DNA from: Acetomicrobium sp. S15 = DSM 107314
Lineage (GTDB): Bacteria; Synergistota; Synergistia; Synergistales; Thermosynergistaceae
Direction: 5' to 3'
Length of the DNA stretch: 34,846 nt
NCBI RefSeq assembly: GCF_016125955.1
Contig: NZ_JADEVE010000028.1
Span: 1 to 34,846, forward strand
Under the pieces are notes generated by a model, which was not told where the DNA came from, made no database searches, and saw only the letters and a program-made list of their open reading frames with translations. Below, one piece after another: positions 1,597 through 31,847 of this stretch (the stretch's first letter is position 1; each line of letters begins with the position of its first letter). Made by a program: the position numbers and the translations under genes.

Positions 1597-1597
1597 C

Positions 1598-2935: not shown

Positions 2936-2943
2936 AGAATTCG

Positions 2944-2959
2944 TCCGCCCTTCGGCGGA
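2944..2959. other. Short hairpin between dnaB and the ParB-like gene
   Basis: TCCGCC (2944-2949) pairs with GGCGGA (2954-2959) around the 4-base loop CTTC. No T-run follows, so this is unlikely to be a factor-independent terminator. It sits in the 47-base gap between the dnaB stop and the GTG start at 2983 and could act as an RNA processing or stability element. The function is inference only. Confidence 0.45.
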
Positions 2960-2982
2960 TCGCCTTGTGGGGGTGATCTTCT

Positions 2983-5665: not shown

Positions 5666-6925
5666 ATCTTCGATTATGTCTTCGATGTCCTCAAGACCGA
5701 TGCTTAGCCGTATCAGCCCCTCGTCGATGCCGCTGCCTTTTCGCTCTTCGGCCGAAAGCTGCGAGTGGGTGGTGGTGGCCGGGTGAATTGCCATGCTCCT
5801 CGCGTCGCCCAAGTTTGGCACTATTGAGAAGAGCTTTAATCCGTCGAGGAAACGCTTGCCCGATTCGAGCCCTCCCTTTATGCAGAAAGCAACCATGCCA
5901 CCGTAACCGCCTCTCAGAAACGCTTTGGCGAGGTCGTGCTGCGGGTGGCTTGAAAGCCCCGGGTATAAAACCCACTCCACCCCTCCGTGCGACTCCAAAA
6001 ATTGCGCCACGTCCATGGCGTTCTTGCTGTGACGCTCCATGCGGAGCGAGAGTGTGGCGAGCCCAAGGCACAAGAGGTGGGCGTTATGTGGTGAAAGACA
6101 GCCGCCCAGATCCCTCAATATGCAGGCTCGAAGCTTCGCCGCGAGAGCTGTCTTGCCGAACTTTTCACAGAACACGACGCCGTGATAGGCCGGGTCGGGC
6201 TCGGTGAATTCGGGCCATTCTCCCAATTCGGCCCAGCGGAAGTTTCCGCCGTCCACCACGACACCTCCTATGGCATTGCCGAAGCCGTCTATGTATTTCG
6301 TGGTGGAGTGGACGACGATATGGGCACCCCGTTCGAGCGGTCGACACAGGGCCGGCGAGGCGAAGGTGTTGTCCACCACCAAAGGTATGCCGTGTCTTTC
6401 GGCAACCTCTCCCAACTCTTCGAGCGGAGGGATGTTCAAGCCGGGATTTCCTATCGTCTCTGCGATTATACAGCGCGTGCGGGGCTTGATGCTCCTTTCT
6501 ACCTCGTTTACGTCGTTGATATCTACGAAGCTCGTGGTTACGCCGAACTTAGAGAAGAGGTTTTTGAGTAGCGTTATCGTGCCCCCATAGGACGAGCGCT
6601 CGGCCACTATGTGGTCGCCCTCCTTGCAGAGGAGCATGACGAGGTGGGCGAATGCGGCCTGTCCCGACGACGTGGCCACCGCCGCCGCACCTCCTTCCAG
6701 GGCAGCGATCTTTTCCTCAAAAGCTGCGACGGTAGGGTTTGATATCCTTGAGTATGTGTGCCCTGGCTTTTCCAAAGAGAAGAGGGCCGCGGCTTCGTCT
6801 ACGCTCGGCAGTTTATACGCTGCAGTGGCGTATATGGGCAGGGCGAACGCGCCGGTGGTCGGGTCGTAATCCCAGCCGCAGTGCAGAGCCTTTGTCGTGA
6901 ATCCCTTGTATTCGGCTTCCTTCAT
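5636..6925 (-). CDS. metY: O-acetylhomoserine sulfhydrylase (Cys/Met metabolism PLP enzyme)
   Basis: A PLP-dependent gamma-replacement enzyme of 429 residues that joins sulfide, or methanethiol, to O-acetyl-L-homoserine to give homocysteine or methionine. Conserved features are YSRISNPTVAAFEEKIAALEGG (about 58-79), SSGQAA near 86-91, ETIGNPGLN near 156-164, DNTFASP at 185-191 and the Schiff-base lysine K210 in STTKYIDG. A roughly 430-residue length and the long region around 235-260 favour MetY over the shorter MetB/MetC enzymes. I choose the ATG at 6925: AGGAGG lies about 8 bases before it, whereas the ATG at 6931 sits almost on top of that site. It lies 70 bases downstream of glnN on the same strand and may be cotranscribed. 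No S-box-type leader fits in the short gap. Confidence 0.92.
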   Translation of the reverse strand: MKEAEYKGFTTKALHCGWDYDPTTGAFALPIYATAAYKLPSVDEAAALFSLEKPGHTYSRISNPTVAAFEEKIAALEGGAAAVATSSGQAAFAHLVMLLCKEGDHIVAERSSYGGTITLLKNLFSKFGVTTSFVDINDVNEVERSIKPRTRCIIAETIGNPGLNIPPLEELGEVAERHGIPLVVDNTFASPALCRPLERGAHIVVHSTTKYIDGFGNAIGGVVVDGGNFRWAELGEWPEFTEPDPAYHGVVFCEKFGKTALAAKLRACILRDLGGCLSPHNAHLLCLGLATLSLRMERHSKNAMDVAQFLESHGGVEWVLYPGLSSHPQHDLAKAFLRGGYGGMVAFCIKGGLESGKRFLDGLKLFSIVPNLGDARSMAIHPATTTHSQLSAEERKGSGIDEGLIRLSIGLEDIEDIIEDLRRGLDAAQ

Positions 6926-6995
6926 TTCCATTCCTCCTCAGTTCGGACGGCATGGGCGAAGAGTTGCACCCGCCACCCACGCCTTTGTTATGGGG

Positions 6996-9104
6996 TCAGT
7001 GTATCACTAAAAGATCTCTATATGGCGGAAACGGCTGCAGGTCGTCGGCTATCCACGATTCTGCGGCGTCACTCAAGGAGCGGATCTCGTTCATGAGCTT
7101 TAAACCATCTCCCGTTATGAGAGAAGCGCTATCTTCGAGTTCTTCCATCTTGATCTTCTTGCGGAAGTTTTTCAATTCTTCGAGCTTTTGAAGGAGCGCC
7201 TCTTTTATACCGCATAGGGTTTTCATGTGCCCCTTCCAAGTTTCCAAGCCATCGTCCAACAGACTTGCGGCTTTTTCGAGAGCGCTCCCCTCTTGGGTAA
7301 TTTGCCGCGATATGCTGGGCAATATGCCGTGGCGTATCATGTCATCCATTACGGCCATCTCGATGTCGACGGTCTTGACGTATTGCTCGAGCCGCGTTTC
7401 GTAGTAAGCCGTAATTTCCCTGTCAGTCATTACGTTAAGCCCGGAGAGCAGATCCCTATTTTCCGGGATCAGGTAGTAGGCAAGCGCTTCCGGCGTTGCG
7501 TTGGCGATAGGAAGCCCCCTGCGCCGTGCCTCTTCGTGCCATTCCGGGTCGTAGCAGTTGCCCTCAAATCGTATCGCCATGCTCTCTTTTGCAACATCTC
7601 GCAGGACATCCAAAGTTGCGTCTGCTATATCGGTATTCCCGAGTCGGCTCTCGATCCTGTTTGTAACCTCCTCTATTCCCCAGGCCCAGATAGTAAGGAG
7701 CATTGTAAGAGGACCGGCGATTGACTGAGACGCGCCGGTCGCGCGAAACTCGAACTTGTTGCCTGTGAACGCCAACGGGGCTGTCCGATTGCGGTCAGAA
7801 TTTTCTTTCTTTATGGACGGGAGCTTATTCAACCCCAAGTCCATCAATCCTTTGGTCGGAATCTCATCGGGGAAACCCTCCTCCAATCGATTCAACACAT
7901 CCGTCAAGGCATTGCCTAAATAAACGCTCATGATAGCGGGCGGCGCCTCGTTTCCGCCTAACCTATACATATTTCCTGGAGATGCGACAGATGCCCTAAG
8001 TAGCGAGCTATACTTGGATACGCCTAAAAGCAGACCGCCCAAAAATGCCAGAAATTGCACATTCCTGCGCTGGCTCGTGGACGGTTCCAATAGGTTATGC
8101 CCATCGCTATCCATGAGCGAGAAATTGGTGTGTTTACCGCTTCCGTTGATGACGGCAAAGGGCTTCTCATGGAGGAGGAGTCTCAAGCCGTGACAGCGGG
8201 CGATCCTTTTCATTGTGCTCATCGTGATCTGGTTTTGATCTGTGGCGAGGTTTGCCTCCGTGAATTGAGGGGCAAACTCGAACTGGCACGGGGCAACCTC
8301 ATCGTGGCGCGTCTTAATGGCGATGCCGAGCTTGTGGAGCTCTTGTTCGGCTTCCTCCATATATGCCAAAACGCGCGGGTGTATTGCGCCGAAATAATGG
8401 TCCTCGAGCTGCTGCCCCTTAGGAGGGAGGCATCCTATAACCGTGCGTCCGCAGAGGACAAGGTCTGGGCGCCTGCGCGCTAACTCTTCATCTATCAAAA
8501 AGAATTCCTGTTCCGCCCCTACGGTCACCTTGACCCAACGGATGCCCCTATTGCCGAAGAGTCGCAACATGCGCATGGCCCGCTCTTCGATGGCTGTTAT
8601 TGCCTTGAGGAGCGGCGTCTTCATGTCGAGTGGCGTCCCATCCCAGGACAGGAAGACGGACGGTATACAGAGCGTCCCCCCGTTTTCCGTGGGTATGATG
8701 AAGGCCGGGCTCGTGGGGTCCCATGCCGTGTAGCCGCGTGCCTCGAAGGTGCTGCGCGTGCCTCCAGAAGGGAGAGACGAGGCGTCGGGCTCACTCTGAA
8801 TGAGCTCGCCCCCCGTGAAAGCCTCTAAGGGCGTTCCTCGCTCGTCTACAGAGAGGAAAGCCATGTGCTTTTCCGCCGTCAGCTCTGTTCTCGGGTGAAA
8901 CCAGTGGGCGTAGTGCGTAGCTCCTAACGATATCGCCCACTCCTTCATCGCTGCCGCCACGACGTCAGCTATGCGGCTATCCAGCTTTTGTTGCCCTCCG
9001 TTGATGGCGCTGGTGAGTTGTTCAAATACATCCTTGGGCAAGCGCTCGCGCATTGCCTTTTCATTGAAGACATGGCGCCCGAAATATGATGTCGGTCTTT
9101 CCAC
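6996..9104 (-). CDS. glnN: Glutamine synthetase type III
   Basis: Large-subunit glutamine synthetase (GSIII) of 702 residues, close to the usual 700-730. It condenses ammonia with glutamate using ATP in the cytoplasm. The family's N-terminal domain opens PTSYFGRHVFNEKAMRERLP (about 4-23). ATHYAHWFHPRTELTAEKH follows (about 62-80). The catalytic-domain glutamates lie in GAEQEFFLIDEE (about 196-207), with NGSGKHTNFSL near 320-330 and a GNKFEFRATGASQS segment near 450. The start is GTG at 9104, since GGGGGTGG lies just upstream and the family N-terminus begins there. An ATG at 9191 would add 29 unrelated residues overlapping the promoter. Its own promoter lies at 9133-9162, with a palindrome further upstream. 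The LysO-type exporter genes precede it on the same strand. Confidence 0.96.
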   Translation of the reverse strand: MERPTSYFGRHVFNEKAMRERLPKDVFEQLTSAINGGQQKLDSRIADVVAAAMKEWAISLGATHYAHWFHPRTELTAEKHMAFLSVDERGTPLEAFTGGELIQSEPDASSLPSGGTRSTFEARGYTAWDPTSPAFIIPTENGGTLCIPSVFLSWDGTPLDMKTPLLKAITAIEERAMRMLRLFGNRGIRWVKVTVGAEQEFFLIDEELARRRPDLVLCGRTVIGCLPPKGQQLEDHYFGAIHPRVLAYMEEAEQELHKLGIAIKTRHDEVAPCQFEFAPQFTEANLATDQNQITMSTMKRIARCHGLRLLLHEKPFAVINGSGKHTNFSLMDSDGHNLLEPSTSQRRNVQFLAFLGGLLLGVSKYSSLLRASVASPGNMYRLGGNEAPPAIMSVYLGNALTDVLNRLEEGFPDEIPTKGLMDLGLNKLPSIKKENSDRNRTAPLAFTGNKFEFRATGASQSIAGPLTMLLTIWAWGIEEVTNRIESRLGNTDIADATLDVLRDVAKESMAIRFEGNCYDPEWHEEARRRGLPIANATPEALAYYLIPENRDLLSGLNVMTDREITAYYETRLEQYVKTVDIEMAVMDDMIRHGILPSISRQITQEGSALEKAASLLDDGLETWKGHMKTLCGIKEALLQKLEELKNFRKKIKMEELEDSASLITGDGLKLMNEIRSLSDAAESWIADDLQPFPPYRDLLVIH

Positions 9105-9132
9105 TAAAACCACCCCCTGTGCGTGATGGCTA

Positions 9133-12304: not shown

Positions 12305-12808
12305 ATGCCAAAAACAAAGCGACTGTTGTTTGTTATCGTTTTATCTTCGACCGCGGTTGTATTTTTTTGCCCGGTCTCTGTGTTGACGATAAGAGATGCG
12401 AACGATACTATCGTTTATGCCGTAACTATCGGAATAAACGATACTTTTTCAATAAAGTTTACGCATTCGGTCGCAAAAAGGCCGGTGGTGGAGACGTTCG
12501 GCTTTAGTGCCGGGAAGAAGATAACGTTGCTGGAGACCGAGTATGATTCCTTCGGTGCGGGTTTGCCTTTTGAGGTGAAGGGCGGGCAGAGATTTATCGC
12601 AAAAGATGGCAAATTTAAGATCGTCGGCTATAATTACGAGGTTCCCGATCTCGTAATAAGGGTGGGCAGGTTTGCAGATCACCTCTTTGTTTTCCGTGGT
12701 GAGGAGATAAGGCTGGTGGATCTCGCAAAAGCAGGAGAGGCGCTCGTGTTTTCTGTGGAAGAAGTGCCGCTTCTCTGGTATGTCTCTGAGAGGTTTTTGC
12801 AACGATAA
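12305..12808 (+). CDS. DUF1850 protein, TAXI-TRAP accessory
   Basis: A 167-residue protein with an N-terminal hydrophobic segment (about 7-24) that acts as an anchor or uncleaved signal, so the rest is probably outside the membrane. The family marks are FSIKFTHSVAKRPVVETF (about 48-65), ETEYDSFGAGLPFE (about 77-90) and a C-terminal EE-PLLWY-like segment. DUF1850 proteins are almost always encoded beside fused TAXI-TRAP permeases, and this one is immediately upstream of such a permease; its molecular role is unknown. The 3' end leads straight into the ribosome-binding site of the permease gene. No receptor gene precedes it here, which is unusual for the arrangement. Confidence 0.85.
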   Translation: MPKTKRLLFVIVLSSTAVVFFCPVSVLTIRDANDTIVYAVTIGINDTFSIKFTHSVAKRPVVETFGFSAGKKITLLETEYDSFGAGLPFEVKGGQRFIAKDGKFKIVGYNYEVPDLVIRVGRFADHLFVFRGEEIRLVDLAKAGEALVFSVEEVPLLWYVSERFLQR

Positions 12809-12839
12809 CACAATATTGAGTGGGGGAGGGGGAATTAAA

Positions 12840-14795
12840 GTGAGCGATACGGAAAACAGGGATCAAAAGCTGGTCACAGAAGATCAAACCATAGACGTAG
12901 AAAAGATATTAGAGAAATACGATCGCGAGTCCGTATACCGCAGGCTTACAGGGTTTTGGAAGTGGGTCATTTCGCTGGGCGCTGTGGCATTTTCTGCATT
13001 TCAGCTTTATACGGCCGCCTTCGGCGTGTATCCGGCGCAGATACAGCGATCCGTGCACCTCGCCTTTATGCTCTTTTTGGTGTTTTTACTCTATCCTGTT
13101 AGCAAAAAGAGTTCCCGCACGGAACTTCACTGGACGGATGTAATCCTTGCGCTTTTTGGGGTAGCTGTAGGCGCTTATATAGTGGTAGAATACACCCCTC
13201 TTATGTATCGAGCGGGATTACCTACAACTCTTGACCTCGTCTTCGGCGCTTTGGCCATCCTGTTGGTCTTGGAGGCGGCGAGGAGGATAGTGGGCTTGCC
13301 GATCGTGATCGTGGCTGCGGCATGTCTTCTTTATGCCTTATACGGCAGTTATATCCCCGGCATGTTCGGCCACCGTGGCTTTCCGCTGCGCAGGGTGATA
13401 ACTCACATGTATGTCACCACTGAGGGTCTCTTGGGACTGCCCATGGGCGTATCGGCCACCTTCGTGTTCATGTTCATCCTTTTCGGTGCCTTTCTTCATA
13501 AGACCGGCCTCGGGAAGTTCTTCATAAACTTGGCGATGGCAGCCACCGGCCATCAGGTGGGCGGCCCCGCCAAGATAGCCGTCGTAGCCAGCGGCATGTT
13601 CGGCACCATATCGGGCAGCTCTGTGGCAAACGTGGTCACCACTGGAACATTTACCATCCCTCTCATGAAGAGCATAGGATATAAACCTCATTTTGCCGGT
13701 GCCGTAGAGGCTGCGGCGTCTACCGGAGGCCAACTCATGCCACCGATCATGGGGGCGGCGGCCTTCGTCATGTCAGAATTTATAGGCGTCCCCTACATCC
13801 GCATAGCAGCAGCCGCCATAGTGCCGGCCATTCTCTACTATTTGGCCGTCTTCGTCATGGTCCACATGGAAGCCTTGAAGCTGGGCTTGAAGGGTCTGCC
13901 TCGCGAACTGTTACCGAACGTGTGGAAGACCTTAAAAGACGGTGGGCACCTGCTCATACCGGTTGCGGTGCTGGTCTACTTCCTCGTCAAAGGATATACA
14001 CCGCTGCGTGCGGCTTTTATGTGCATCATCATTACGATAGTCATAGCCATGATGCGAAAGAATACCAGAATGAAACCACGAGATCTGTATGAGGCGATGG
14101 AGAATGGCGCGAGGAGTGCCTTGGGTGTGGCATCGGCGTGTGCCTGCTCCGGATTGATCATAGGTGTGGTTACACTCACCGGTTTGGGTCTGAAGATCGC
14201 CAACGGCATCATCTATCTGGCCGGGGGGGTTTTCTTTTTAACGTTAGTCTTCACAATGCTCGCTTCCATATTGTTGGGGATGGGGCTCCCGACGACTGCG
14301 AAGTATATAGTGTTGGCCAGTATGGCTGCTCCCGCGCTGCAGAAGTTCGGCCTGCCACCTATTGCCGCTCATATGTTTATCCTCTACTACGGCATAATAG
14401 CGGACCTCACACCGCCCGTCGCCCTGGCAGCGTATGCCGGAGCGGGCGTAGCGGGGGCCAACCCTATGAAGACAGGCTGGACAGCCTTGAAGTTGGCTCT
14501 GGCCGGTTTCCTCATTCCATACATATTCGCCTATGATCCGGTTTTGCTCCTTATAGGGGCTACTCCGCTTAAGGTAATAGTCGCATCGACGACTGCCATA
14601 ATAGGCGTTTTCGCCCTCGGGTTTGCGACCTCCGGCTATTGGCTTAGAAACATGGCCCTATGGGAGCGCGTCATCCTCTTCGGAGGGGCGCTTGCCCTGA
14701 TAAAGCCGGGAGTATTGACCGATGGTGCGGGTATTTTGATAATGGCTTCTATCTATATCTATCAACGCTTGAAAGTCAAGAGGGGATCTGTTTAA
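12840..14795 (+). CDS. TAXI-TRAP transporter fused 4TM/12TM permease
   Basis: A 651-residue permease combining the small (DctQ-like) and large (DctM-like) subunits of a TAXI-type tripartite carrier. A cytoplasmic N-terminal tail with EKILEKYDRESVYRRLTG leads into about four hydrophobic segments (about 40-150) and then the large DctM-like domain. The conserved segments are GTISGSSVANVVTTGTFTIPLMK and EAAASTGGQLMPPIMGAAAFVM (near 260-320, each quoted only in outline), GMGLPTTAKYIV near 500 and DLTPPVALAAYAGAGVAG near 540. Such carriers use a sodium or proton gradient to import organic acids delivered by a periplasmic receptor. The start is GTG at 12840, after GGGGAGGGGG. The paralogue at 31887-33827 has the same architecture. 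The OFOR genes follow 27 bases later. Confidence 0.94.
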   Translation: MSDTENRDQKLVTEDQTIDVEKILEKYDRESVYRRLTGFWKWVISLGAVAFSAFQLYTAAFGVYPAQIQRSVHLAFMLFLVFLLYPVSKKSSRTELHWTDVILALFGVAVGAYIVVEYTPLMYRAGLPTTLDLVFGALAILLVLEAARRIVGLPIVIVAAACLLYALYGSYIPGMFGHRGFPLRRVITHMYVTTEGLLGLPMGVSATFVFMFILFGAFLHKTGLGKFFINLAMAATGHQVGGPAKIAVVASGMFGTISGSSVANVVTTGTFTIPLMKSIGYKPHFAGAVEAAASTGGQLMPPIMGAAAFVMSEFIGVPYIRIAAAAIVPAILYYLAVFVMVHMEALKLGLKGLPRELLPNVWKTLKDGGHLLIPVAVLVYFLVKGYTPLRAAFMCIIITIVIAMMRKNTRMKPRDLYEAMENGARSALGVASACACSGLIIGVVTLTGLGLKIANGIIYLAGGVFFLTLVFTMLASILLGMGLPTTAKYIVLASMAAPALQKFGLPPIAAHMFILYYGIIADLTPPVALAAYAGAGVAGANPMKTGWTALKLALAGFLIPYIFAYDPVLLLIGATPLKVIVASTTAIIGVFALGFATSGYWLRNMALWERVILFGGALALIKPGVLTDGAGILIMASIYIYQRLKVKRGSV

Positions 14796-14822
14796 GGTTG
14801 TTAAAAAGGGGGAGGTTATAAA

Positions 14823-15983
14823 ATGGCAACATCAACAACTGAGCGAGCCCAGAGGGTGCTAACGGGCACTCACTTCATGCTGGGCAACTATGCGGTGGTA
14901 GAAGGGGCGCTCGCCGCTGGATGCGATTTCTTTGCCGGATATCCCATAACGCCGGCCAACGAAATCTCGGAGCGCATGTCACAGCGCCTTCCGACCGTGG
15001 GTGGCAAGTTTTTACAGGGCGAGGACGAGCTCTGTTCCATCTACGCCCTGTCGGGCGCATCGCTTGCGGGGGCCAAGGCTATGACAGCTACGGCAAGCGC
15101 CGGGTATAACTACATGCAAGAAGGGATAGGCTATGCTGTAGCTGTGGAAGCTCCCATAGTTATCGTTGACGTCCAGAGATGCCGTGGCGAAAACTTCGCC
15201 TCTCAGGCCGACGTGATGCAGATGAAATGGGGGCCGAGTGGCGATCACGAGCTCATAGTCCTTGCTCCGTCTTCCGTGCAGGAGCTCTTCGACTTCACGA
15301 TAAGGGCCTTCAACCTCGCCGAGGAGTTCCGAAACCCTGTAATAATTATGTCCGAGACGACGATAGCCTTAATGAGAGAAAGGCTCGTCATACCGCCGGC
15401 GGAGGAGATAGAAATAGTGAACAGGCGATACACATCCCTGCCGCCAGACAAATACCTTCCCTTCAAAGCTAATGAGGAGTACGGCGTTCCCGACTTCGCG
15501 CCTTTGGGAGAGGGATACGGCGCTATCTATTCGCTAAACCCCCATTCCGAGGAGGGGAGCATCGACTGGGATCCCGATGTGTTTGAGCGGCTCTATAAGC
15601 GTATAACCGGCAAAGTTACGCAGCATAGGAACAAAATCTGCAAGACGCAGGCCTTTAAGATGGATGATGCTGATGTAGCGCTCATAGCTTATGGCAGCGA
15701 AGTGCGTCCATGTATAGACGCGATGGAGATGGCCAGAGCTGACGGTATTAAGGTTGGGGTTTTGAAGCTCGATACTGTATGGCCGGTGCCTGAAGAGCAG
15801 ATAATTCAAGTGGCTAACCACGTGAAGCTCGCCATCACGGTTGAAATGAACATTGGCAAATATACGAGAGAAGTCGAACGCCTCTGCTGTGCAAAGTGCA
15901 GGACAGCGGTGGCCACCAAGAACAGAGGGCTCGTTCACTTCCCCGAGGAAGTCTATGCAGTCATTAAGGAGGTATGGCGATGA
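14823..15983 (+). CDS. 2-oxoacid:ferredoxin oxidoreductase, alpha subunit
   Basis: A 386-residue alpha subunit of a 2-oxoacid:ferredoxin oxidoreductase (KorA/VorB type), which converts a 2-oxoacid and CoA to acyl-CoA, CO2 and reduced ferredoxin. YPITP at 40-44 is the substrate-side motif of the pyrimidine-binding domain. EDEL near 67-70, AMTATASAGYNYMQEG near 86-101 and VDVQR at 115-119 are conserved, and the C-terminal transketolase-like domain ends near 375. After VDVQR the usual GGPSTGLPT-type loop is absent: the chain reads CRGENFASQADVMQ instead. That loop helps shape substrate choice in the family, so 2-oxoglutarate specificity should not be assumed. The ATG at 14823 follows GGGGGAGG. 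The beta-subunit gene overlaps its stop codon. Confidence 0.9.
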   Translation: MATSTTERAQRVLTGTHFMLGNYAVVEGALAAGCDFFAGYPITPANEISERMSQRLPTVGGKFLQGEDELCSIYALSGASLAGAKAMTATASAGYNYMQEGIGYAVAVEAPIVIVDVQRCRGENFASQADVMQMKWGPSGDHELIVLAPSSVQELFDFTIRAFNLAEEFRNPVIIMSETTIALMRERLVIPPAEEIEIVNRRYTSLPPDKYLPFKANEEYGVPDFAPLGEGYGAIYSLNPHSEEGSIDWDPDVFERLYKRITGKVTQHRNKICKTQAFKMDDADVALIAYGSEVRPCIDAMEMARADGIKVGVLKLDTVWPVPEEQIIQVANHVKLAITVEMNIGKYTREVERLCCAKCRTAVATKNRGLVHFPEEVYAVIKEVWR

Positions 15984-16810
15984 GTCAGCCAATTAACCCA
16001 TTGAGAAAATATATCAGAGAAGGGAAGCTTCCGCATTTCTTCTGTCCTGGATGCGGCTGTGGACAGATATTGAACGCTTTTCTTCAGGCTTGCGACGAGC
16101 TGGGCATGGATCCGTCGAGAATGGTGATCATCGGTGGTGTGGGTTGCACGGCCAGGATTCCCGTATATCTGAAAGGAGACGTACTCCACGGAGTTCACGG
16201 CAGGACGCTTGCCTGGGCCACTGGCATAAAGCTTCACAAACCGCAGACTAAGGTAGTAATCTTCGCCGGCGACGGTGACGTTGCCTCTATAGGCGGAAAT
16301 CACCTGATACACGCCGCCAGGCGCAATTTGGACGCCTTGGTGGTGGTCGCCAACAACTTCAACTACGCCATGACCGGCGGCCAAGTTGCCCCCATGACGC
16401 CTTCGCAGGTCAGAACTATGACCACTCCCTTCGGTAACCCCGAGCCTTCCTTCGACATCTGCGAGCTCGTCGTCACCGCTGGGGCTACATACGTGGCCAG
16501 AGAGGTTACGGGTCGTCCCGTGCAACTTGAGCGCACGCTCAAAAAAGCGCTGACCCATGAGGGGTTTGGTCTCGTCGAAGTGCTCTCTCAATGTCCCACC
16601 AATTATGGAAGATATGCCCTGAGGAGCGGCGATCCGGCCGTAACGCTCAAGTGGATCATGGATCGGTGCATAACCAAGGCACAAGCCGATAAGCTATCCG
16701 AGGAAGAGAAGGCCGGCAAATTCGTTGTGGGCGAGTTTGTGGATTTCAAGCGCCCGATATTCCGCGGCAGCTCCGTTTATGACTTGGAATCTTGCGAATG
16801 CTGCGAGTGA
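15980..16810 (+). CDS. 2-oxoacid:ferredoxin oxidoreductase, beta subunit (TPP-binding)
   Basis: A 276-residue TPP-binding subunit. The [4Fe-4S]-related CPGCGCG motif is at 22-28. The TPP motif runs from AGDGD (96-100) to NN at 125-126, followed by NYAMTGGQVAPMTP. GVGCTARIP near 53-61 is typical of KorB/VorA. I place the start at the ATG at 15980, because AAGGAGG lies 7 bases before it and the ATG overlaps the alpha-subunit stop (ATGA). The ATG at 15974 is too close to the ribosome-binding site. The extreme C-terminus is cysteine-rich (ESCECCE), which is not a usual feature of this subunit and could bind metal. It forms the catalytic core with the alpha subunit. Confidence 0.92.
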   Translation: MSQPINPLRKYIREGKLPHFFCPGCGCGQILNAFLQACDELGMDPSRMVIIGGVGCTARIPVYLKGDVLHGVHGRTLAWATGIKLHKPQTKVVIFAGDGDVASIGGNHLIHAARRNLDALVVVANNFNYAMTGGQVAPMTPSQVRTMTTPFGNPEPSFDICELVVTAGATYVAREVTGRPVQLERTLKKALTHEGFGLVEVLSQCPTNYGRYALRSGDPAVTLKWIMDRCITKAQADKLSEEEKAGKFVVGEFVDFKRPIFRGSSVYDLESCECCE

Positions 16811-16824: not shown

Positions 16825-17376
16825 ATGAAGCCGATAAATATAAGGATTTGTGGCTTTGGCGGACAGGGGATAGTGCTTTCGGCGATCATATTGGGGACGG
16901 CCGCCGTGACGAAGCGCGGTCTCTACGCCGTGCAGACGCAGTCTTATGGCTCTGAAGCCAGAGGCGGGCAGTGCCAGGCAGAGTTGATCGTTTCAGATTC
17001 CCCGATAAACTCCCCCGCAACTCAGAATAAAGACATTTTGGTGGCTATGTTCCAGAGCGCGCTCGATGCGTACCTTCCGAGCCTCAAACCTAACGGGATC
17101 CTCATCGTAGATCCGGCGATGGTCACTGATCTGCACAATACGACGGCTCGGGTGTATTCTGTGCCGGCCACCGAGACGGCGGTTAAGCTGGGCAACAGGA
17201 TCTGCGCTAACATGGTGATGCTCGGCTATTTCCAGGAGGCCACTGGCCTCATCACGAGGGATGACGTGGTCGAGACGATGAAAGAACTGGTCCCCGAGCG
17301 TTTTCACGAGCTCAATGAAAGGGCTATAGATGCAGGCGTGGAGCTTGCTAAGGGAACCAAAATAGATATCTTTTAG
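16825..17376 (+). CDS. 2-oxoacid:ferredoxin oxidoreductase, gamma subunit
   Basis: A 183-residue gamma subunit of the same oxidoreductase. The N-terminus NIRICGFGGQGIVLSAIILG (about 5-24) and the QSYGSEARGGQCQAELIVSD segment (about 39-58) are classic for this domain, which contributes to CoA binding and subunit contacts. A C-terminal segment with TRDDVVETMKE and NERAIDAG closes the fold. The family length of about 180 residues is matched. The gene starts at the ATG at 16825, 14 bases after the beta-subunit stop, with AAGGTG upstream. The acyl-CoA synthetase genes follow immediately, before the ferredoxin subunit, so the oxidoreductase genes are split by the synthetase pair. Confidence 0.92.
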   Translation: MKPINIRICGFGGQGIVLSAIILGTAAVTKRGLYAVQTQSYGSEARGGQCQAELIVSDSPINSPATQNKDILVAMFQSALDAYLPSLKPNGILIVDPAMVTDLHNTTARVYSVPATETAVKLGNRICANMVMLGYFQEATGLITRDDVVETMKELVPERFHELNERAIDAGVELAKGTKIDIF

Positions 17377-17392
17377 GCCGGTGATTGGTGCG

Positions 17393-18514
17393 ATGAAACT
17401 TTACGAATTTCAAGGCAAAGAGCTCTTCAGAGAAGCCGGCATACCAGTTCCTCGCGGCAGACTTGTTACGAGAGAGGAAGAATTGGGGCTTGTCGAGTTT
17501 CCGGCAGTTCTGAAAGCTCAGGTTCTCGTGGGAGGGCGCGGGAAGGCTGGCGGAATAAAGGTCTGCAAGACGCCTGAAGAGGGGAAGAAGGCGTTTGAAA
17601 GCCTTTTGGGCGCCTCGATAAAGGGCGAAAAGATTTGCGCTTTGCTGGCAGAAGAGACTGCGGATATCAAGAGAGAATTTTATCTGTCTATCACTATACC
17701 CAGCGGCAGCAAATCCTTTTTGCTCATGGGGAGCGCAACCGGGGGGGTTGAAATAGAGCAAGTTGCCCAAAGCGCTCCCGAAGCGTTGTTTTCGTTACTC
17801 ATAGATCCCATAGTCGGCGTAATGGATTATCAGGTTCGCTACGTTGCCAAGCGCTTCGCCTGTGAAGTTGAAGAAGCGAGGAAGGTGCTGACGGGTCTGT
17901 ATCGGGCCCTGAGAGAAAACGACGCAACACTTGTGGAGATAAATCCTCTCGCTGAGACGCCTCGAGGGTTGTTGGCGCTGGATGCCAAGGTCGTGTTGGA
18001 CGATAAAGCGCGTTGGAGGAGAAGCGAGCTCTTCGAAAGGCTTGCAGAACAACAAGCCGCTATCGGAGGCCAAGCTGTAAGCGTTTCCACTGACACGATT
18101 ACCTATGTGCCTCTTGATGGTACGGTTGGCCTCATATCCGACGGGGCTGGCACGGGAATGCTCACGCTCGACCTCATAAGCGATGCCGGGGCAAGGGCTG
18201 CGTGCTTCTGCGAGATGGGCGGCCTTACGAGCCCTGAGGTTATGTACTCCGCCCTCGAGAAGACTTTAAACAATAAGAATGTCAAGGCCATCATAGTGGT
18301 GTTGATAGGCGGTTTCAACCGCATGGACGAGATGGCAGAAGGCATCGTGCGCTACCAAAAGGAGAAAGGGCTTCCTGTCCCTATCGTCGTGAGGATGTGC
18401 GGCACAATGGAAGAAGAGGGGAAACGCATTATGAGAGAAGCTAATCTCAAAACATATGATGACTTATATGAAGCAGTGCATGAAGTTGTGGCTTTGGCTG
18501 GGAGGAATAGCTGA
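17393..18514 (+). CDS. sucC: Succinyl-CoA synthetase beta-like subunit (ADP/GDP-forming acyl-CoA synthetase)
   Basis: A 373-residue SucC-family beta subunit with an ATP-grasp nucleotide-binding domain. The N-terminus MKLYEFQGKELFREAGIPVP is typical. KAQVLVGGRGKAGGIK (about 42-57), the VEINPLAETPRG metal-binding motif (about 183-194) and LDAKV complete the ATP-grasp part. The ligase domain reads SDGAGTGMLTLD, FCEMGGLTSPEVMYSAL and VLIGGFNRMDEMAEG. In E. coli SucC the matching places read NGAGLAMGTMD, LDVGGGA and FGGIVRCD, so acid- and CoA-site loops differ here. The reaction class (acyl-CoA plus NDP and phosphate to acid, CoA and NTP) is secure, but succinate as substrate is not. The start is ATG at 17393 rather than GTG at 17381, which lies inside the likely ribosome-binding region. 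The alpha-subunit gene overlaps the stop by one base. Confidence 0.85.
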   Translation: MKLYEFQGKELFREAGIPVPRGRLVTREEELGLVEFPAVLKAQVLVGGRGKAGGIKVCKTPEEGKKAFESLLGASIKGEKICALLAEETADIKREFYLSITIPSGSKSFLLMGSATGGVEIEQVAQSAPEALFSLLIDPIVGVMDYQVRYVAKRFACEVEEARKVLTGLYRALRENDATLVEINPLAETPRGLLALDAKVVLDDKARWRRSELFERLAEQQAAIGGQAVSVSTDTITYVPLDGTVGLISDGAGTGMLTLDLISDAGARAACFCEMGGLTSPEVMYSALEKTLNNKNVKAIIVVLIGGFNRMDEMAEGIVRYQKEKGLPVPIVVRMCGTMEEEGKRIMREANLKTYDDLYEAVHEVVALAGRNS

Positions 18515-19386
18515 TGGCTGTGCTGGTGAATAGAGATACAAACGTGCTCGTCCTCGGGATAACGGGACGCTCCGGTCGCCTTCAGACGAAGGTCATGCTC
18601 GATTATGGAACCAAAGTTGTGGCAGGCGTGACTCCGGGCAAGGGAGGGCAAATGGCAGAAGGCGTGCCCGTCTACGACTTCGTAAGCGAGGTATTGAAAG
18701 AACACAGGATAGACGCGGCTATCAGTTTCGTTCCTGCCCGCTCAGCTAAGGACTCGTCGTTTGAAGCCATCGACAACGGCATCAAATTCTTGGTGCTAAC
18801 GATGGAAGAGATCCCAGACCACGATGTCCTGGAGATCCTCTCTTATGCCAAGGCCAAAGGGACCACTGTCCTCGGGCCTGGTGCAGCTGGCATCATATCC
18901 CCGGGCAAGTGCAAGCTCGGGGCTCACCCGCCGAGAATGTTCACGGAGGGGAACGTGGGCGTAGTGTCCAAAAGCGGCGCTCTCTCCTATGAAGTGGGTA
19001 AAACTTTGACCGAAGCCGGCATAGGGCAGTCTACCGTCATCGCTTTAGGAGGAGGCCCTCTTTGGGGGCTCACCCAGAGGGATGCAGTGCGCCTCTTTCA
19101 GGAAGACCCCGAAACCGAAGTCATACTGCTTTTGGGAGAGATCGGCGGGACGACCGAGGAGGAGGCTGCTGAATTCATAGCCCAAAACGTCACCAAACCG
19201 GTTGTGGCGTTGATAGTTGGCAGGGCTGCCCCTGAGGGCAAATCTTTGGGGCATGCCGGGGCGATAATCCAAGGCAATCGCGGCACTGCTCAATCTAAGA
19301 TTACTGCGTTGTCCCGTGCCGGCGCGAAGATAGCCACAACTCCCAAAGAGGCAGCACAGATTATAAAAGAGATAAGAGGTGAATAA
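18514..19386 (+). CDS. sucD: Succinyl-CoA synthetase alpha-like subunit
   Basis: A 290-residue SucD-family alpha subunit carrying the phosphohistidine. H247 in the conserved GHAGAII box becomes phosphorylated in the family. The CoA-binding Rossmann domain has GITGRSGRLQTK (15-26) and a GVTPGKGG segment. GEIGGTTEEEAAEF at 208-221 is well conserved. Other signatures deviate: GPGAAGIISPGKCKLG (121-136) where GPNCPGIITPGECKIG is usual, and GGGPLWGLTQRDAV (179-192) where GGDPIPGTNFIDAL-type sequence is usual. With the beta subunit it should make the ligase heteromer. It starts at the ATG at 18514 (TGATG overlap with the beta-subunit stop), so coupled translation is expected. A different short acid than succinate is possible. 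Confidence 0.86.
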   Translation: MAVLVNRDTNVLVLGITGRSGRLQTKVMLDYGTKVVAGVTPGKGGQMAEGVPVYDFVSEVLKEHRIDAAISFVPARSAKDSSFEAIDNGIKFLVLTMEEIPDHDVLEILSYAKAKGTTVLGPGAAGIISPGKCKLGAHPPRMFTEGNVGVVSKSGALSYEVGKTLTEAGIGQSTVIALGGGPLWGLTQRDAVRLFQEDPETEVILLLGEIGGTTEEEAAEFIAQNVTKPVVALIVGRAAPEGKSLGHAGAIIQGNRGTAQSKITALSRAGAKIATTPKEAAQIIKEIRGE

Positions 19387-19585: not shown

Positions 19586-19603
19586 ATAATTAAGGAGGTG
19601 CGC

Positions 19604-20596
19604 ATGTTGGCTGCTTCTGATCGTCGTGTTTATGTGGTCGAACCCGAAGGGCCGGAGGAGTGGTTTCAGGAGCTTAAGAAAGAGGCAGAGGTGATATTCC
19701 TCTATCCGGAGAAGGCACTGACGCCTGAAGAGGTGAGGAAGGTCGTAAGCGATGCCACGGCAATGATCATCACATCGCGCTGTGGTGTATCTGCTGAGGA
19801 CATGGAGTACGCTAAGAACTTGGGGATTATCTCTAAGTGTGGCGCCAAACCCTCCAACGTTGATATTGATGCCGCTACGAAGAAGGGCATCGCCGTGACG
19901 TTTACGCCTGGAGCGAATTCCACCACCGTGGCGGAATTCGCAGTTATGATGATGATGGCTTGCTTACGCCGGTTGAACTTGCTTATCGACATGGTAGCTC
20001 ATGATGAGTGGCGCTCTCCTTACACGATGGGGCGCGAACTCAGAGACAAAGTAGTGGGGCTCATCGGTTATGGGGCTATAGGCCGCGAGGTTGCAAGGAG
20101 GCTCGAAGGCTATGACTGCCAGGTGTTGGCTTACGATCCCTATTACAAAAAGGGCGATGAGCCGAAGTGCGTGACTTTTATAGATGACCTGAAGCGCCTG
20201 ATCACACAATCCGACGTGATCTCTATTCACTGCATGCTCACGGACGAGACGTATCATCTCCTCTCTGACGAGGAGTTCGCCATGATGAAATCTACGGCTG
20301 TTGTGGTGAATACTGCTCGTGGGCCGATTATAGACGAAGAAGCCCTGGCGAGGGCTCTTAAAGAAGAAAAAATATGGGGCGCTGCCATAGACGTATACGC
20401 CGAGGAACCGGCCAAATCAACTCATCCTCTCGTGGGTTTGAAAAATGCCATATTAACGCCCCATGTGGCGGGCTGGACCGAGGAAACGATCATGAGAGAG
20501 GTAGGTGGCGCCGTAAAATCCGTGCTCGCCTACCTGAGGGGTGAGGAGATCCCCGGGTTGATCAACCCCGATTACGCAAAGCACAGACGAGCGTAA
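19604..20596 (+). CDS. D-isomer-specific 2-hydroxyacid dehydrogenase (SerA-like, single-domain form)
   Basis: A 330-residue NAD-dependent dehydrogenase. The Rossmann motif GYGAIG is at 155-160. D178, at the end of the next strand, suggests NAD rather than NADP. The catalytic triad is R239 (NTARGP), E268 (AEEP) and H287 (LTPHVAGW). The size matches PGDH-like enzymes without the regulatory ACT domain. It is annotated by homology as 3-phosphoglycerate dehydrogenase-like, but its position as the last gene of an OFOR/acyl-CoA-synthetase operon suggests a catabolic D-2-hydroxyacid or 2-oxoacid substrate instead. The start is ATG at 19604, with AAGGAGG 5 bases upstream; a GTG at 19598 overlaps that site. 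A strong terminator follows. Confidence 0.88.
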   Translation: MLAASDRRVYVVEPEGPEEWFQELKKEAEVIFLYPEKALTPEEVRKVVSDATAMIITSRCGVSAEDMEYAKNLGIISKCGAKPSNVDIDAATKKGIAVTFTPGANSTTVAEFAVMMMMACLRRLNLLIDMVAHDEWRSPYTMGRELRDKVVGLIGYGAIGREVARRLEGYDCQVLAYDPYYKKGDEPKCVTFIDDLKRLITQSDVISIHCMLTDETYHLLSDEEFAMMKSTAVVVNTARGPIIDEEALARALKEEKIWGAAIDVYAEEPAKSTHPLVGLKNAILTPHVAGWTEETIMREVGGAVKSVLAYLRGEEIPGLINPDYAKHRRA

Positions 20597-20663: not shown

Positions 20664-21259
20664 ACGGCAATACTGAGTATCTGTCCGTATTTGACCCCCA
20701 AATAGCGCTCGCCGCCTCTAATTCAACGGGCAGTAGCATTCATTTCTAGACGAACCCATGCATTCTTGTCTGCTATAAATTGATAATAAGGAGTTGATCG
20801 GAAAGGGGCTGTTTCTTTGGTCTTGATGCACCTCCAGATGTGTCTGTATGAAAAACGAAGCAAACTTGAGAAATAGCAGGAAAAAATTGAGAAATATGCC
20901 AATTCAAACGCCTAAGCCCAATCTATTGCCTAAAACACTCTATAATCAAGCTTGACACTTTGGACCAGAAGTGCTTTTCTATTAGATAATTTAGGTGAGG
21001 AGTTGCAATATAAACAGAATCCAAATGAATTATAGCACTCAAAGGTTTCCATCGCATTTCATCAAAGGTGAATGTCATCATTTGGCACGTCGAGTTTGCG
21101 CGTTAACAATTTCTGTAGCTGGAGCTTTGGAGTTAAGGGAGGATGGTGATTTTTCGAAGAGTAAGAACTAGGGTGTCGGGAGTGCACGATGAAACGATGG
21201 TCAGTGGGTTTGCTTTCTGGCAGAAAGCCCTTTGGATAGCCCAAATAGGAGGGGTAGCC
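20664..21259. other. Gene-free interval of about 600 bases before dctP
   Basis: I see no convincing gene, tRNA or insertion sequence here. The first part is still GC-rich; from about 20740 on it is A+T-rich. It holds the direct repeat at 20866-20896, an isolated TTGACA (20952-20957) without a well-spaced -10 box, and a weak open frame from 21143 that runs into dctP. It may be decayed DNA at the left edge of an accessory block plus an unmapped dctP promoter. Confidence 0.5.
20866..20896. repeat. Two direct copies of TTGAGAAATA, 21 bases apart
   Basis: TTGAGAAATA occurs at 20866-20875 and 20887-20896. The 21-base period equals two DNA helical turns, so both copies face the same side. It could be a pair of regulator half-sites upstream of dctP, or chance in A+T-rich sequence. 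Confidence 0.4.
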
Positions 21260-22267
21260 ATGAAAAAAATCTTATGCTACGCGTTTTTGATTGTTGTGGC
21301 AAGTGTTTTTATCTGTGGTAGCTCTAAGGCCACAGCTGCAGATCGGGGTAATTATAAAATTAGACTGGCTCATGTTGAACCGGAAGAAAGGTCACTGCAC
21401 AAATGTTGCCTTGATTTTAAGAACTATGTTGAAGATCGCTCAGGCGGGAAGATTATTGTTGAAGTTTATCCGAATGCACAATTGGGCGGCGATCGTCAGG
21501 CTTTAGAGACGGTTTCTCTTGGGGCGCTTGAGATGACTGCTGCAGCAAGTGCGGTTCTGTCTAATTACGATCCTTCTTTTGGTATATTGGATCTGCCATT
21601 TATATTTAAGGATCGAGAAGCTACCGTACATGCCTGTGATGGCAAAGTTGGGCAAATTCTTAACAGTAAATTGCCTGCATTTGGCATGGTTGGGTTAGGG
21701 TTCTCGGATTATGGTCAACGTCACATTACTAATAATGTTAGGCCGATCCATGAACCTAAAGATTTAAAAGGCATTAAAATGCGTGTGATGGAAAATCCGG
21801 TATATGTCGATTTGTTCCGCACTTTAGGTGCGAATCCTACGCCTATGAGCTTTGGCGAGCTGTACACTGCTTTGCAGCAAGGCACGGTTGACGGTCAAGA
21901 AAATCCTCCACCCTTGATTTATGCATCGAAATTTTACGAAGTACAAAAGTACCTTAGCCTTACTGGTCATACGTGGAATTTCAACGTGATAGCAATTAGC
22001 AAGGCATTCTTTGATTCTCTGCCAGAAGAGCTTCGGACAATTGTTGTTGATGGGGCTAGAACACAAATAGTTGAGCAGGAGCGCGTGATAGAGGCGCAAA
22101 TTCAGGAAGAGTATGTTGTTAAACTCGAGCAAGAAGGAATGATCGTGAACGAAATTACTCCAGAAAACAGACAAAAATTTGTTGAGGCAACACAACCGGT
22201 CCGAGATAAATATCTGAAAGGTTTTTCTGAAGAGTTATTATTGGCTATGGACGAAGCAAATCAATAG
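21260..22267 (+). CDS. dctP: TRAP transporter solute receptor, DctP family
   Basis: A 335-residue periplasmic receptor. A signal peptide (about 1-27: basic KK, hydrophobic core, ATAA end) is followed by a mature chain beginning near DRGNYKIRLAH. Family marks are PNAQLGGDRQALE (about 76-88), LDLPFIFKD (near 112-120), the KGIKMRVMENP segment with the conserved arginine that pins the substrate carboxylate, and MSFGELYTALQQGTVDGQENP. The class is secure and the ligand unknown. The ATG at 21260 has AGGAGGGG upstream; an in-frame ATG at 21143 would precede the signal peptide with an unrelated basic stretch. dctQ and dctM follow, giving a complete three-part carrier of the DctPQM layout. Confidence 0.94.
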   Translation: MKKILCYAFLIVVASVFICGSSKATAADRGNYKIRLAHVEPEERSLHKCCLDFKNYVEDRSGGKIIVEVYPNAQLGGDRQALETVSLGALEMTAAASAVLSNYDPSFGILDLPFIFKDREATVHACDGKVGQILNSKLPAFGMVGLGFSDYGQRHITNNVRPIHEPKDLKGIKMRVMENPVYVDLFRTLGANPTPMSFGELYTALQQGTVDGQENPPPLIYASKFYEVQKYLSLTGHTWNFNVIAISKAFFDSLPEELRTIVVDGARTQIVEQERVIEAQIQEEYVVKLEQEGMIVNEITPENRQKFVEATQPVRDKYLKGFSEELLLAMDEANQ

Positions 22268-22319
22268 TAGCTATATCCATTATAGCTATATTAAATAGAT
22301 TTTACTAAGGTTAATTATC

Positions 22320-22865
22320 GTGACAAATCAGGCCAATTCTTCAAAGAAAAAGAAGGTTGAAGGACAAGATGAAAAAGGGTCAACCCGGAGCTTCTTAGGG
22401 GGCTCTGCGTTGACCCTCCTATTTGAGAGATTCTTGGTGTCGAGCTTCTTATTTAGCTTAATTTTAGTATTTGTTCAAGTTATTATGAGATATATTTTTA
22501 ACTATTCCCTATCTTGGAGTGAGGAACTTGCGCGTTATATATTCGTTTGGCAAAGCTGGTTAGGTTTTTGTCTTGCGCTTAAACATGGAAAGCACATTCG
22601 AATAGATGTGGTAAGCCATCGGTTGAGCCCAAGGTTGAAAATAGTTTTCGAGACAATAGCTTGGTCGTTGAGTTTAATAATGGTTTTATTTTTGGTTATA
22701 AATGGGTTTAAACTCCTCCGCTTATTGGCATCACGCGGTCAGGTTTCTCCAGCTCTAAGAATGCCGATGAGTTATGCATATGCGGCTGTGCCAGTTTCTT
22801 GTTTATTAGGAAGCGTGCTCATTGTTGTGTATATTATAAGTCTCTTCACGTCTCGGAAGGGGTAA
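22320..22865 (+). CDS. dctQ: TRAP transporter small permease subunit, DctQ family
   Basis: A 181-residue membrane protein with four hydrophobic segments. A polar, lysine-rich N-terminal tail of about 30 residues precedes the first. The family signature lies after helix 1: VQVIMRYIFNYSLSWSEEL (about 53-71), then ARYIFVWQSWLG and the KHGKHIRIDVV segment. The C-terminal SPALRMPMSYAYAAVP segment is also typical. The start is GTG at 22320 with only a weak AAGG upstream, so the N-terminal tail is less certain than the rest. Base composition here is strongly A+T-biased. The gene lies between dctP and dctM. Confidence 0.92.
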   Translation: MTNQANSSKKKKVEGQDEKGSTRSFLGGSALTLLFERFLVSSFLFSLILVFVQVIMRYIFNYSLSWSEELARYIFVWQSWLGFCLALKHGKHIRIDVVSHRLSPRLKIVFETIAWSLSLIMVLFLVINGFKLLRLLASRGQVSPALRMPMSYAYAAVPVSCLLGSVLIVVYIISLFTSRKG

Positions 22866-22870
22866 GAATA

Positions 22871-24154
22871 ATGGTTGAAGCTGCCCTGCTTTTTGGAAGT
22901 CTCATTGTGTTCATCTTTCTTGGTGTGCCAATTGGTATTGCCATCGGTTTAGCAACGCTGTTCAACCTTACATTTATAAGTGACTTGAATCCAATAATAA
23001 TCACGCAGAATGCGTTTGCGGGAATTGACTCATTTCCTTTGTTGGCAATTCCATTTTTTATACTGGCAGGTACTGTGATGCAAACTGGTGGAATCGCTCG
23101 TCGTTTGTTAAACTTAGGAAGTGCTTTAATAGGAACTGTTACCGGTGGGCTTGCCATGATTACTGTGATAACATCCATGTTTTTTGCTGCGCTCTCGGGA
23201 TCGGCTTTGGCCACAGTCTCTGCCGTAGGATCGTTTATGATACCTGACATGAAAGAAAAAGGATACGATGAAAGTTTTGCTGCTGCAATCACCGCAGCGG
23301 CGGGGACTATAGGTGTAATTATTCCACCGAGCATTCCATTCGTGATTTATGGAGTAGTGACTGGTACTTCTGTTGGCGACCTGTTTCTTGCCGGAATTTT
23401 TCCAGGCATATTGATAGGAATTGGGCTGATGATTACAAGTTATGTTATCTCAAAAAAGAGGGGATATGTAGGTCAGGAGATAAATGTAAGCTTTAACAAA
23501 GTTATGAAGGCACTATTTGATGCAAAATGGGCAATTATGGTTCCATTAATAATTCTTGGAGGCATTTATGCAGGTATTTTTACACCTACAGAAGCTGCTG
23601 TTGTAGCTTCGGTGTATAGTATTTTGATTAGTGCTTTTGTTTATCATGAATTGACTTTAAATTCTTTATATAAGGCATTTTTAGAAGCTTTTATGGTGAA
23701 TGGTATAATAGTTTTTATAGTTGGTCTTTCAACATCTTTTGCATCTTACTTGAGCATGCAACAGATTCCAATTAAGATGAGTGAGGCACTTCTTACTTTA
23801 ACAAGTAATAAATTTATTATATTGGCCTTGACAAATGCTATTCTTCTGCTAGTTGGTTGTTTTGTCGATAATATTCCAGCCACTATTATTTTATCTCCTA
23901 TATTTCTCCCAATAGTCACCAAATTTGGCATAACTCCGATACAGTTTGGCATTATAATTACTTATAACTTAGCGATAGGATTTATTACACCTCCATATGG
24001 ACAAAATCTATTTGTGGCTTCGGCTATAGGAGGAGTTTCAATTGGGAAAATCTTTCGTGGCATAATCCCATTCTTATTTAGTATGATTATAATATTAATG
24101 CTTCTTACATTTGTTCCATGGTTTTCTGTCGGAATTTTACGTCTATTGCAGTAA
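22871..24154 (+). CDS. dctM: TRAP transporter large permease subunit, DctM family
   Basis: A 427-residue permease with about twelve hydrophobic segments, the usual DctM length. Marks of the family are FLGVPIGIAIGLATL (about 15-29), DSFPLLAIPFFILAG near 52-66, SGSALATVSAVGSFMIPDM, AAAGTIGVIIPPSIPFVIYG (about 142-161), ILGGIYAGIFTPTEAAVVAS (about 229-248) and a late GFITPPYGQNLFV segment. It uses an ion gradient to import the solute delivered by DctP. The start is the ATG at 22871, with GGAAGGGG upstream. A longer frame opening at 22799 overlaps dctQ and lacks a ribosome-binding site. Codon use is A+T-rich like dctQ, and an aminotransferase gene follows 39 bases later. Confidence 0.94.
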   Translation: MVEAALLFGSLIVFIFLGVPIGIAIGLATLFNLTFISDLNPIIITQNAFAGIDSFPLLAIPFFILAGTVMQTGGIARRLLNLGSALIGTVTGGLAMITVITSMFFAALSGSALATVSAVGSFMIPDMKEKGYDESFAAAITAAAGTIGVIIPPSIPFVIYGVVTGTSVGDLFLAGIFPGILIGIGLMITSYVISKKRGYVGQEINVSFNKVMKALFDAKWAIMVPLIILGGIYAGIFTPTEAAVVASVYSILISAFVYHELTLNSLYKAFLEAFMVNGIIVFIVGLSTSFASYLSMQQIPIKMSEALLTLTSNKFIILALTNAILLLVGCFVDNIPATIILSPIFLPIVTKFGITPIQFGIIITYNLAIGFITPPYGQNLFVASAIGGVSIGKIFRGIIPFLFSMIIILMLLTFVPWFSVGILRLLQ

Positions 24155-24193
24155 TGGTTTGTGTTAGCATAACAATAAACGGAGGTGCTAATT

Positions 24194-31770: not shown

Positions 31771-31807
31771 TAGAAAGTCGTTGACTGCTTGACGCGAACA
31801 GTCCTTA

Positions 31808-31847
31808 GGCCCTATGCTTCCTGTATTCGCGCGGGGAGCATGGGGCC
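31808..31847. promoter_or_regulatory. Intercistronic hairpin between receptor and permease
   Basis: GGCCCTATGCT (31808-31818) pairs with AGCATGGGGCC (31837-31847) with a single G-T wobble and an 18-base loop. No T-run follows. Hairpins after receptor genes often protect the upstream mRNA or lower read-through, giving more receptor than permease; that role is inferred here. Confidence 0.5.

Follow-up and report, generated by a model that had tools for sequence, protein, structure and literature searches.

The locus and its variant alpha subunit

The window, by which we mean the whole stretch of 34,846 nucleotides that was analysed, comes from Acetomicrobium sp. S15 = DSM 107314. It encodes a 2-oxoacid:ferredoxin oxidoreductase (OFOR) with alpha, beta and gamma domains (PF01855, PF02775 and PF01558; the CxGC motif of beta reads CPGC), followed by a two-subunit ligase of the SucCD type:

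12305..12808 (+): DUF1850 protein, first of the putative transcription unit, overlapping the start of the TRAP permease (PF08905, 72 bits)
12780..14795 (+): TRAP transporter fused permease, 27 bp before alpha (TIGR02123, 777.9 bits, cut-off 320.65)
14823..15983 (+): OFOR alpha with a variant substrate loop (NF006412, 428.2 bits against a cut-off of 411; PF01855)
15084..15104 (+): TATASAG (alpha residues 88-94), replacing TATSGPG
15177..15212 (+): variant loop RCRGENFASQAD, R119-D130 of alpha
15974..16810 (+): OFOR beta (NF007207, 251.9 bits, below the cut-off of 364)
16825..17376 (+): OFOR gamma (PF01558; TIGR02175, 81.2 bits, cut-off 81.1)
17381..18514 (+): SucC-like ADP-forming acyl-CoA ligase, ATP-grasp subunit (NF001913, 336.9 bits, below the cut-off of 370)
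18514..19386 (+): SucD-like CoA-binding subunit (TIGR01019, 343.4, below 353.2; NF004230, 342.6, over 336)
19598..20596 (+): D-2-hydroxyacid dehydrogenase family, 211 bp after sucD (PF02826; PGDH, 252.5, below the cut-off of 454)

The spacing of the genes suggests that DUF1850 through sucD are transcribed as one unit. The dehydrogenase, for which PGDH was the best named model, is a possible supplier of the 2-oxoacid. Two more TRAP systems lie downstream, at 21143-24154 and 30805-33827 (DctP-type by profile; TAXI-type by similarity clusters), adjoined by a class III aminotransferase (24185-25480) and by two possible sodium symporters, encoded by long ORFs at 25606 and 28856. Beta ends in SCECCE (16790-16807); Cys-rich tails also occur in several Synergistota relatives and are mostly absent from members of other phyla.

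The alpha ORF (14823-15983, +) encodes 386 residues. It had been predicted from the letters of the DNA that the GPSTG-type loop is absent after VDVQR while the flanking motifs are conserved. The first part is correct: V115-D116-V117-Q118-R119 is followed by CRGENFASQAD, where KorA-type relatives have a GGPSTGLPT-type stretch as far as the Asp, and the loop is also four residues shorter, with a spacer of 10 residues from R119 to D130 compared with 14 in the GPSTG relative L003 (GGPSTGLPTLPAQG). The second part holds for YPITP (residues 40-44) and Arg119, which are intact, but not for AMTATASAG, since GPSTG relatives mostly read TATSGPG at this site, and some TASSGPG or similar. Beta and gamma also depart from their GPSTG relatives. 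Beta reads GVGCTAR and YAMTGGQVAPMTP instead of GIGCSSR and YGMTGGQxSPTTP, with YAMTGGQVAP at the site where the relatives read YGMTGGQxSP, and gamma reads SYGSEARGG instead of [SA]YGPEARGG.

YPITP, T43 and R119 (equivalent to StOFOR Arg344) nevertheless place alpha in the OFOR superfamily. It resembles the KorA-type alpha of model NF006412 (PRK08659) in its full-length match over the cut-off, its YPITP and its Arg119, and differs in the shorter CRGEN loop and TATASAG; the GPSTG-carrying alpha of L066, a paralogous operon in the same genome, scores 571.3 with this model. Against the 2-oxoglutarate synthase alpha model (NF007206), the window alpha reached 269.6, with a cut-off of 579. Four further alphas of the genome (L002, L004, L006 and L008) also lack an exact GPSTG, and L003 and L005 are separate GPSTG OFORs. 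A search of plasmid records returned 61 matches to alpha, all below 60% identity, and no close relative among them.

The loop had also been expected to lie close to the substrate in related enzymes, and to alter substrate choice. According to the accessible part of a report on StOFOR1 (PMC5020499), Arg344 and Thr256 hold the substrate carboxylate, and Ser41, Thr349, Asp468, Lys49(beta) and Leu123(beta) surround the substrate side chain. By alignment, R119 of alpha corresponds to Arg344 and T43 to Thr256, and in beta R61 corresponds to Lys49(beta) and M133 to Leu123(beta). The Thr of GPSTG aligns with StOFOR1 Thr349, which puts this site beside the substrate side chain in that related enzyme, as anticipated. 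This Thr has no counterpart in the variant alpha. The expected change in substrate choice fares less well: the loop site adjoins the substrate, but the accessible part of the same report describes no significant difference for T349L (PMC5020499), so the missing Thr is no proof in itself. We conclude that the loop by itself does not prove altered specificity. N239, at the position of StOFOR1 Asp468 (Leu in KorA), was discarded as a mark of the variant alphas, being common to L066, L082 and L110.

Two structural models of alpha showed a good fold with a poorly resolved loop (mean pLDDT 41 and 62 for residues 121-130). The single-chain model from the wider alignment had a mean pLDDT of 90.4, against 62 in the loop, and homology to solved enzymes would position the loop over the cofactor. 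The nearest solved folds were 6n2n from Magnetococcus (Z 47.2, rmsd 2.3, 369 residues aligned) and 8ys5 from H. pylori (Z 45.4, rmsd 2.1, 367 aligned). Both are 2-oxoglutarate enzymes that match alpha and beta in sequence as well as alpha in fold; they differ in having GPSTG-type loops, without counterpart in the window alpha.

Distribution of the variant-loop clade

We assembled a clade set of 40 loci from 37 genomes, in which the loop was readable at 37 loci and missing from three. One scan of genome contigs yielded 24 loci, 23 in the clade and one (L060) with GPSTG; for L058, L061 and L062 only the C-terminal part of alpha was visible. The loop reads RCRG[ED]N[FY]A[ST][QH]xD in 36/37 readable clade alphas, so CRGEN is not a chance variant. 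The 37th, from a Bathyarchaeal host, reads RIRGAEQPTHAD and retains R121-G122, the pair that is invariant in 23 aligned sequences. In a maximum-likelihood tree of 75 rows, from which near-copies of one locus and matches shorter than 300 residues were left out, the variant-loop alphas formed one clade: 33 rows fell on one side of a branch with 100/100 support. The stem measures 0.86 changes per site, and the sister group was not resolved in this tree.

The clade is rare and scattered over distant phyla. Whole-genome searches with a clade profile found it in 16/185 Synergistota, after four of the 20 alphas passing E 1e-120 were excluded (403–423 bits, GPSTG loops). Outside Synergistota it was found in 1/63 genomes of the class of Dethiosulfatarculus, 1/291 in a sample of the Desulfosarcina bin's class, 5/154 of the class that includes the L041 bin and 1/295 in a sample of the order to which Ruminococcaceae D5 belongs; each of these four sets counts its centre genome among its own matches and contains some unscored candidates. 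Host labels include Synergistales, Bacillota, Atribacterota, Desulfosarcina, Bipolaricaulota, Aminicenantes, Bathyarchaeota, Methanomicrobia and Caldisericaceae. These hosts are mostly metagenome bins whose single assignments may err; in the tree, for instance, the Aminicenantes row adjoins an Atribacterota one. Two hosts, Dethiosulfatarculus sandiegensis and Yanshouia hominis, are nevertheless named strains. Such a patchy spread suggests horizontal transfer of the module.

The gene order alpha-beta-gamma-sucC-sucD was found at all 32 clade loci where the contig extends at least 2.9 kb beyond alpha; at the remaining eight the contig ends too soon for the operon to be read. Among 19 GPSTG OFOR loci serving as a control (up to about 6 kb on each side, some contigs being short, such as L143, which stops right after beta), SucCD genes were present only at L066 and L142, which belong to one small tree group with L003 and L082. 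The L040 contig has two gamma-SucC-SucD sets (54-2680 and 4584-9122) with a 2-hydroxyacid dehydrogenase and a GntR regulator between them, and only the second has alpha and beta within the contig.

Motif changes in the co-encoded ligase

The ligase departs from succinyl-CoA synthetase (SCS) in both subunits. Window SucC has the loops EMGGLT and GGFN, and in window SucD GPGAAG replaces GPNxPG and GGGP replaces GGDP. Across the clade the GPNxPG site is GP[GD]xxG in 32/32 SucD and the GGDP site is GGGP in 31/31 readable sequences, while the GIV site of SucC is changed in all 32 (GFN in 28, GLT in two, GMT in one and GLN in one; Asn in 29/32). The conserved Asn of GPNxPG and the GIV motif are thus both lost, whereas Asn and GGDP are present in the five solved SucD chains compared. 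What the clade ligase shares with SucCD is both subunits, the GHAGA region and SucD Tyr159, kept in 31/31 readable sequences.

In the accessible part of a study of SCS and related ligases, the distal carboxylate contacts Tyr167 and the GIV motif backbone, and the small-subunit Asn belongs to a highly conserved set binding phosphate, Mg and the C1 carboxylate (PMC11489063). In our reading of the alignments, these sites probably map to SucD GPNxPG, SucD Tyr159 and SucC GGFN. Since both the oxidoreductase and the ligase depart from the standard substrate motifs, the acyl group is probably other than succinyl. The original prediction had both enzymes handle one unusual acyl group; the altered ligase pocket motifs, inherited together with the variant alpha, agree with this, and the shared acyl group is what we infer from them. 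The loop observation is in fact stronger than first stated, because the loop marks out a whole clade and the partner ligase has changed along with it.

These ligase marks also occur outside the clade. L066 and L142 share the Asn at the GIV site, which was therefore rejected as a clade mark, and L142 also lacks the SucD Asn. L066 looks like a succinyl system, though it is no proven 2-oxoglutarate control: it keeps GPSTG, its SucD passes both cut-offs (405.1 against 353.2), its SucC passes NF001913 (397.9, cut-off 370) but not TIGR01016 (365.1 against 375.55), and genes for a thiolase and a succinyl-CoA:acetate CoA-transferase lie nearby. Its OFOR nonetheless falls below the 2-oxoglutarate models (415.4 against 579; 318.3 against 364), so failing those models says little.

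An ordinary 2-oxoglutarate:ferredoxin oxidoreductase with a succinyl-CoA synthetase, in which the motifs drifted and the substrate stayed the same, is an unlikely explanation that nonetheless deserves weight. Both of the closest solved folds belong to 2-oxoglutarate enzymes, and the retained SucD Tyr, which in the accessible description of SCS contacts the C4 carboxylate of succinate, leaves room for a succinate-like product. In five clade genomes (G193, G195, G200, G202 and G204) no second match to the clade profile exceeded 300 bits, and hence these genomes gave no sign of a separate KorA-type enzyme. Drift, however, would have to account for changes in the loop, TATSGPG, beta, gamma, SucC and SucD that were then strongly conserved across phyla. 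The Acetomicrobium genome moreover has its own GPSTG OFORs (L003 and L005) and a second OFOR-SucCD operon nearer to the canonical models. We found no verified 2-oxoglutarate enzyme with the variant loop, and the solved 8ys5 and 6n2n, when aligned, are of the GPSTG type.

L050, L054 and L056 form a subtype (tree support 95/41) with GLT or GMT in SucC, GPDTPG in SucD and [FY]GMTGGQ in beta, and may use a different substrate from the GFN majority.

Neighbouring genes and candidate substrates

For each neighbour family between one and six members were annotated, and BLAST clustering added the rest; as many contigs are short, the counts over the 37 clade loci are lower bounds. We found a TRAP TAXI or fused permease at at least 12/37, a GntR regulator at at least 11/37, and an aminotransferase family closest to aspartate aminotransferases at at least 8/37, in or beside the operon in six (L052, L054, L056, L063, L065 and L118). 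Asp-type racemases occur at at least 6/37, 2-hydroxyacid dehydrogenases at at least 5/37 (window included), hydantoinases and Amidohydro_3 proteins at at least 4/37 each, PALP and DUF917-type proteins at at least 3/37 each, and Glu/Asp-type SDF symporters at at least 2/37. The L054 aminotransferase best matched 1bkg (308.9 bits), a chain named aspartate aminotransferase that we take to be the Thermus enzyme, and the best matches of the L054 racemase were aspartate racemases. For the two aminotransferases scanned, the best of the 25 models shown for each reached 392.5 and 428.6 against a cut-off of 550, and none passed.

Two neighbour signals were set aside: a PEPCK-like family at 6/37 loci, whose scanned member scored 93.7 against a cut-off of 369, and clusters c8, c10 and c15-c17, judged to be artefacts from antisense frames in G+C-rich loci. 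Methyltransferase genes also accompany the clade. The L056 contig carries the operon, a B12-binding protein and two MtmB-family genes (3764-5131 and 13552-14922; open frames of 455–456 residues, no in-frame stop), the second assigned to PF05369 and the first clustering with it; at L043 two MTTB-family genes (1392-4338) lie directly upstream of clade alpha.

The aspartate-type aminotransferase and racemase, together with the TRAP transporter, suggest that the 2-oxoacid is small and acidic, with oxaloacetate as first choice, ahead of 2-oxoglutarate or sulfopyruvate. By judgement rather than computation, we regard oxaloacetate as the leading single candidate, though a tentative one; 2-oxoglutarate ranks second and is doubtful, sulfopyruvate is improbable, and the remaining probability goes to other substrates. 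The Glu/Asp-type symporters and the hydantoinases fit glutamate, and with it 2-oxoglutarate, as well.

Sulfopyruvate, which would be converted to sulfoacetyl-CoA, draws on the racemases of L049, L051, L052 and L055, which exceed the cut-off of the cysteate racemase model CuyB, but those of L054 and L118 fall below it. CuyB was ruled out as specific evidence for cysteate by a Synergistota-wide search, in which NF052483 matched 106/185 genomes at E <=1e-45 with 36 over the cut-off; the model may be over-calling. In the neighbours that were scanned we recognised no enzyme specific to sulfonates other than the racemase. Five of the 37 loci carry 2-hydroxyacid dehydrogenases, the family to which SlcC presumably belongs, and SlcC and ComC interconvert sulfolactate and sulfopyruvate in the part of their description available. 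The SucCD family is known to include ligases for sulfoacetate and 3-sulfopropionate, and HpfY carries an Asn in its GIV site (GIN), like 29/32 clade SucC (mostly GFN), according to the accessible part of PMC11489063. In that same text HpfZ has His for SCS Tyr167 where the clade keeps Tyr (31/31), so the HpfYZ pairing of His with Asn is absent (PMC11489063). SqwKL and HpfYZ, compared here by description only, are likewise ADP-forming SucCD-family enzymes, but follow aldehyde dehydrogenases and not an OFOR in the accessible text (PMC11489063).

The neighbours vary, and the allantoinase and threonine-ammonia-lyase types do not fit any single substrate. Very mixed neighbourhoods might indicate a broad module acting on several 2-oxoacids, which we hold to be a remote prospect, as the pocket residues are strongly conserved over distant hosts. 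A small, uncharged substrate, for example 2-oxobutyrate or glyoxylate, appears the least probable of all: the L120 PALP is closer to threonine ammonia-lyase (330.2, cut-off 378.75) than to threo-3-hydroxyaspartate lyase (289.5, cut-off 452), and the hydantoinases of L045 and L118 exceed the allantoinase cut-off, but each of these families is found at only 3 or 4 of 37 loci, and the new Arg121 and aspartate-type neighbours indicate an acid. Three other substrates were rejected by model scores: branched-chain (VorB, 270 against 399) and aromatic (indolepyruvate model, 88.1 against 650.9) 2-oxoacids, for both of which the neighbourhood points elsewhere, and oxalate (38.7 against 500), where alpha keeps YPITP in place of the YPIRP given for the oxalate enzyme in the accessible part of PMC5020499.

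Our best explanation, which we put at about even, is an altered-substrate OFOR-SucCD module for a small acidic 2-oxoacid. As a derived catabolic module, probably spread horizontally, it has in our estimate the same even prospects. Alpha-beta-gamma would oxidatively decarboxylate the 2-oxoacid to an acyl-CoA with reduction of ferredoxin, and the co-encoded SucCD-type ligase would convert the acyl-CoA to the free acid and ATP. T43 and R119 would hold the carboxylate as usual, and we propose that the new R121 in the shortened loop meets the distal acid group. The leading route would run from aspartate through oxaloacetate and malonyl-CoA to malonate and ATP. Oxaloacetate oxidation to malonyl-CoA offers no obvious advantage over the pyruvate route, which counts against this explanation. 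A parallel in overall plan is 4-hydroxyphenylpyruvate oxidation by HpdDEFG with HpdJ/HpdK, which in the available part of its description also leads from an amino-acid-derived 2-oxoacid through an OFOR to acyl-CoA and ATP; it differs in its aromatic substrate and in having a phosphotransferase and a kinase in place of a SucCD ligase.

In a literature search that covered few subscription papers, we found no oxaloacetate:ferredoxin oxidoreductase forming malonyl-CoA, no sulfopyruvate oxidoreductase tied to sulfoacetate and cysteate, and no link of sulfopyruvate, ferredoxin and sulfoacetyl-CoA. The module may carry out an undescribed energy-conserving step, in which ferredoxin-dependent oxidation turns oxaloacetate into malonyl-CoA (or sulfopyruvate into sulfoacetyl-CoA) and a dedicated ligase then makes ATP, a possibility that we consider real but rather doubtful. 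In the reverse direction its first step would amount to a reductive carboxylation.

Model-based names for these genes are 2-oxoacid oxidoreductase and succinate-CoA ligase, suggesting 2-oxoglutarate oxidation. If the acyl group differs, part of anaerobic amino-acid catabolism is mis-annotated in several phyla, and a further reaction would yield reduced ferredoxin and ATP. The joint signature of RCRGEN in alpha, GP[GD]xxG and GGGP in SucD and mostly GFN in SucC finds the clade easily.
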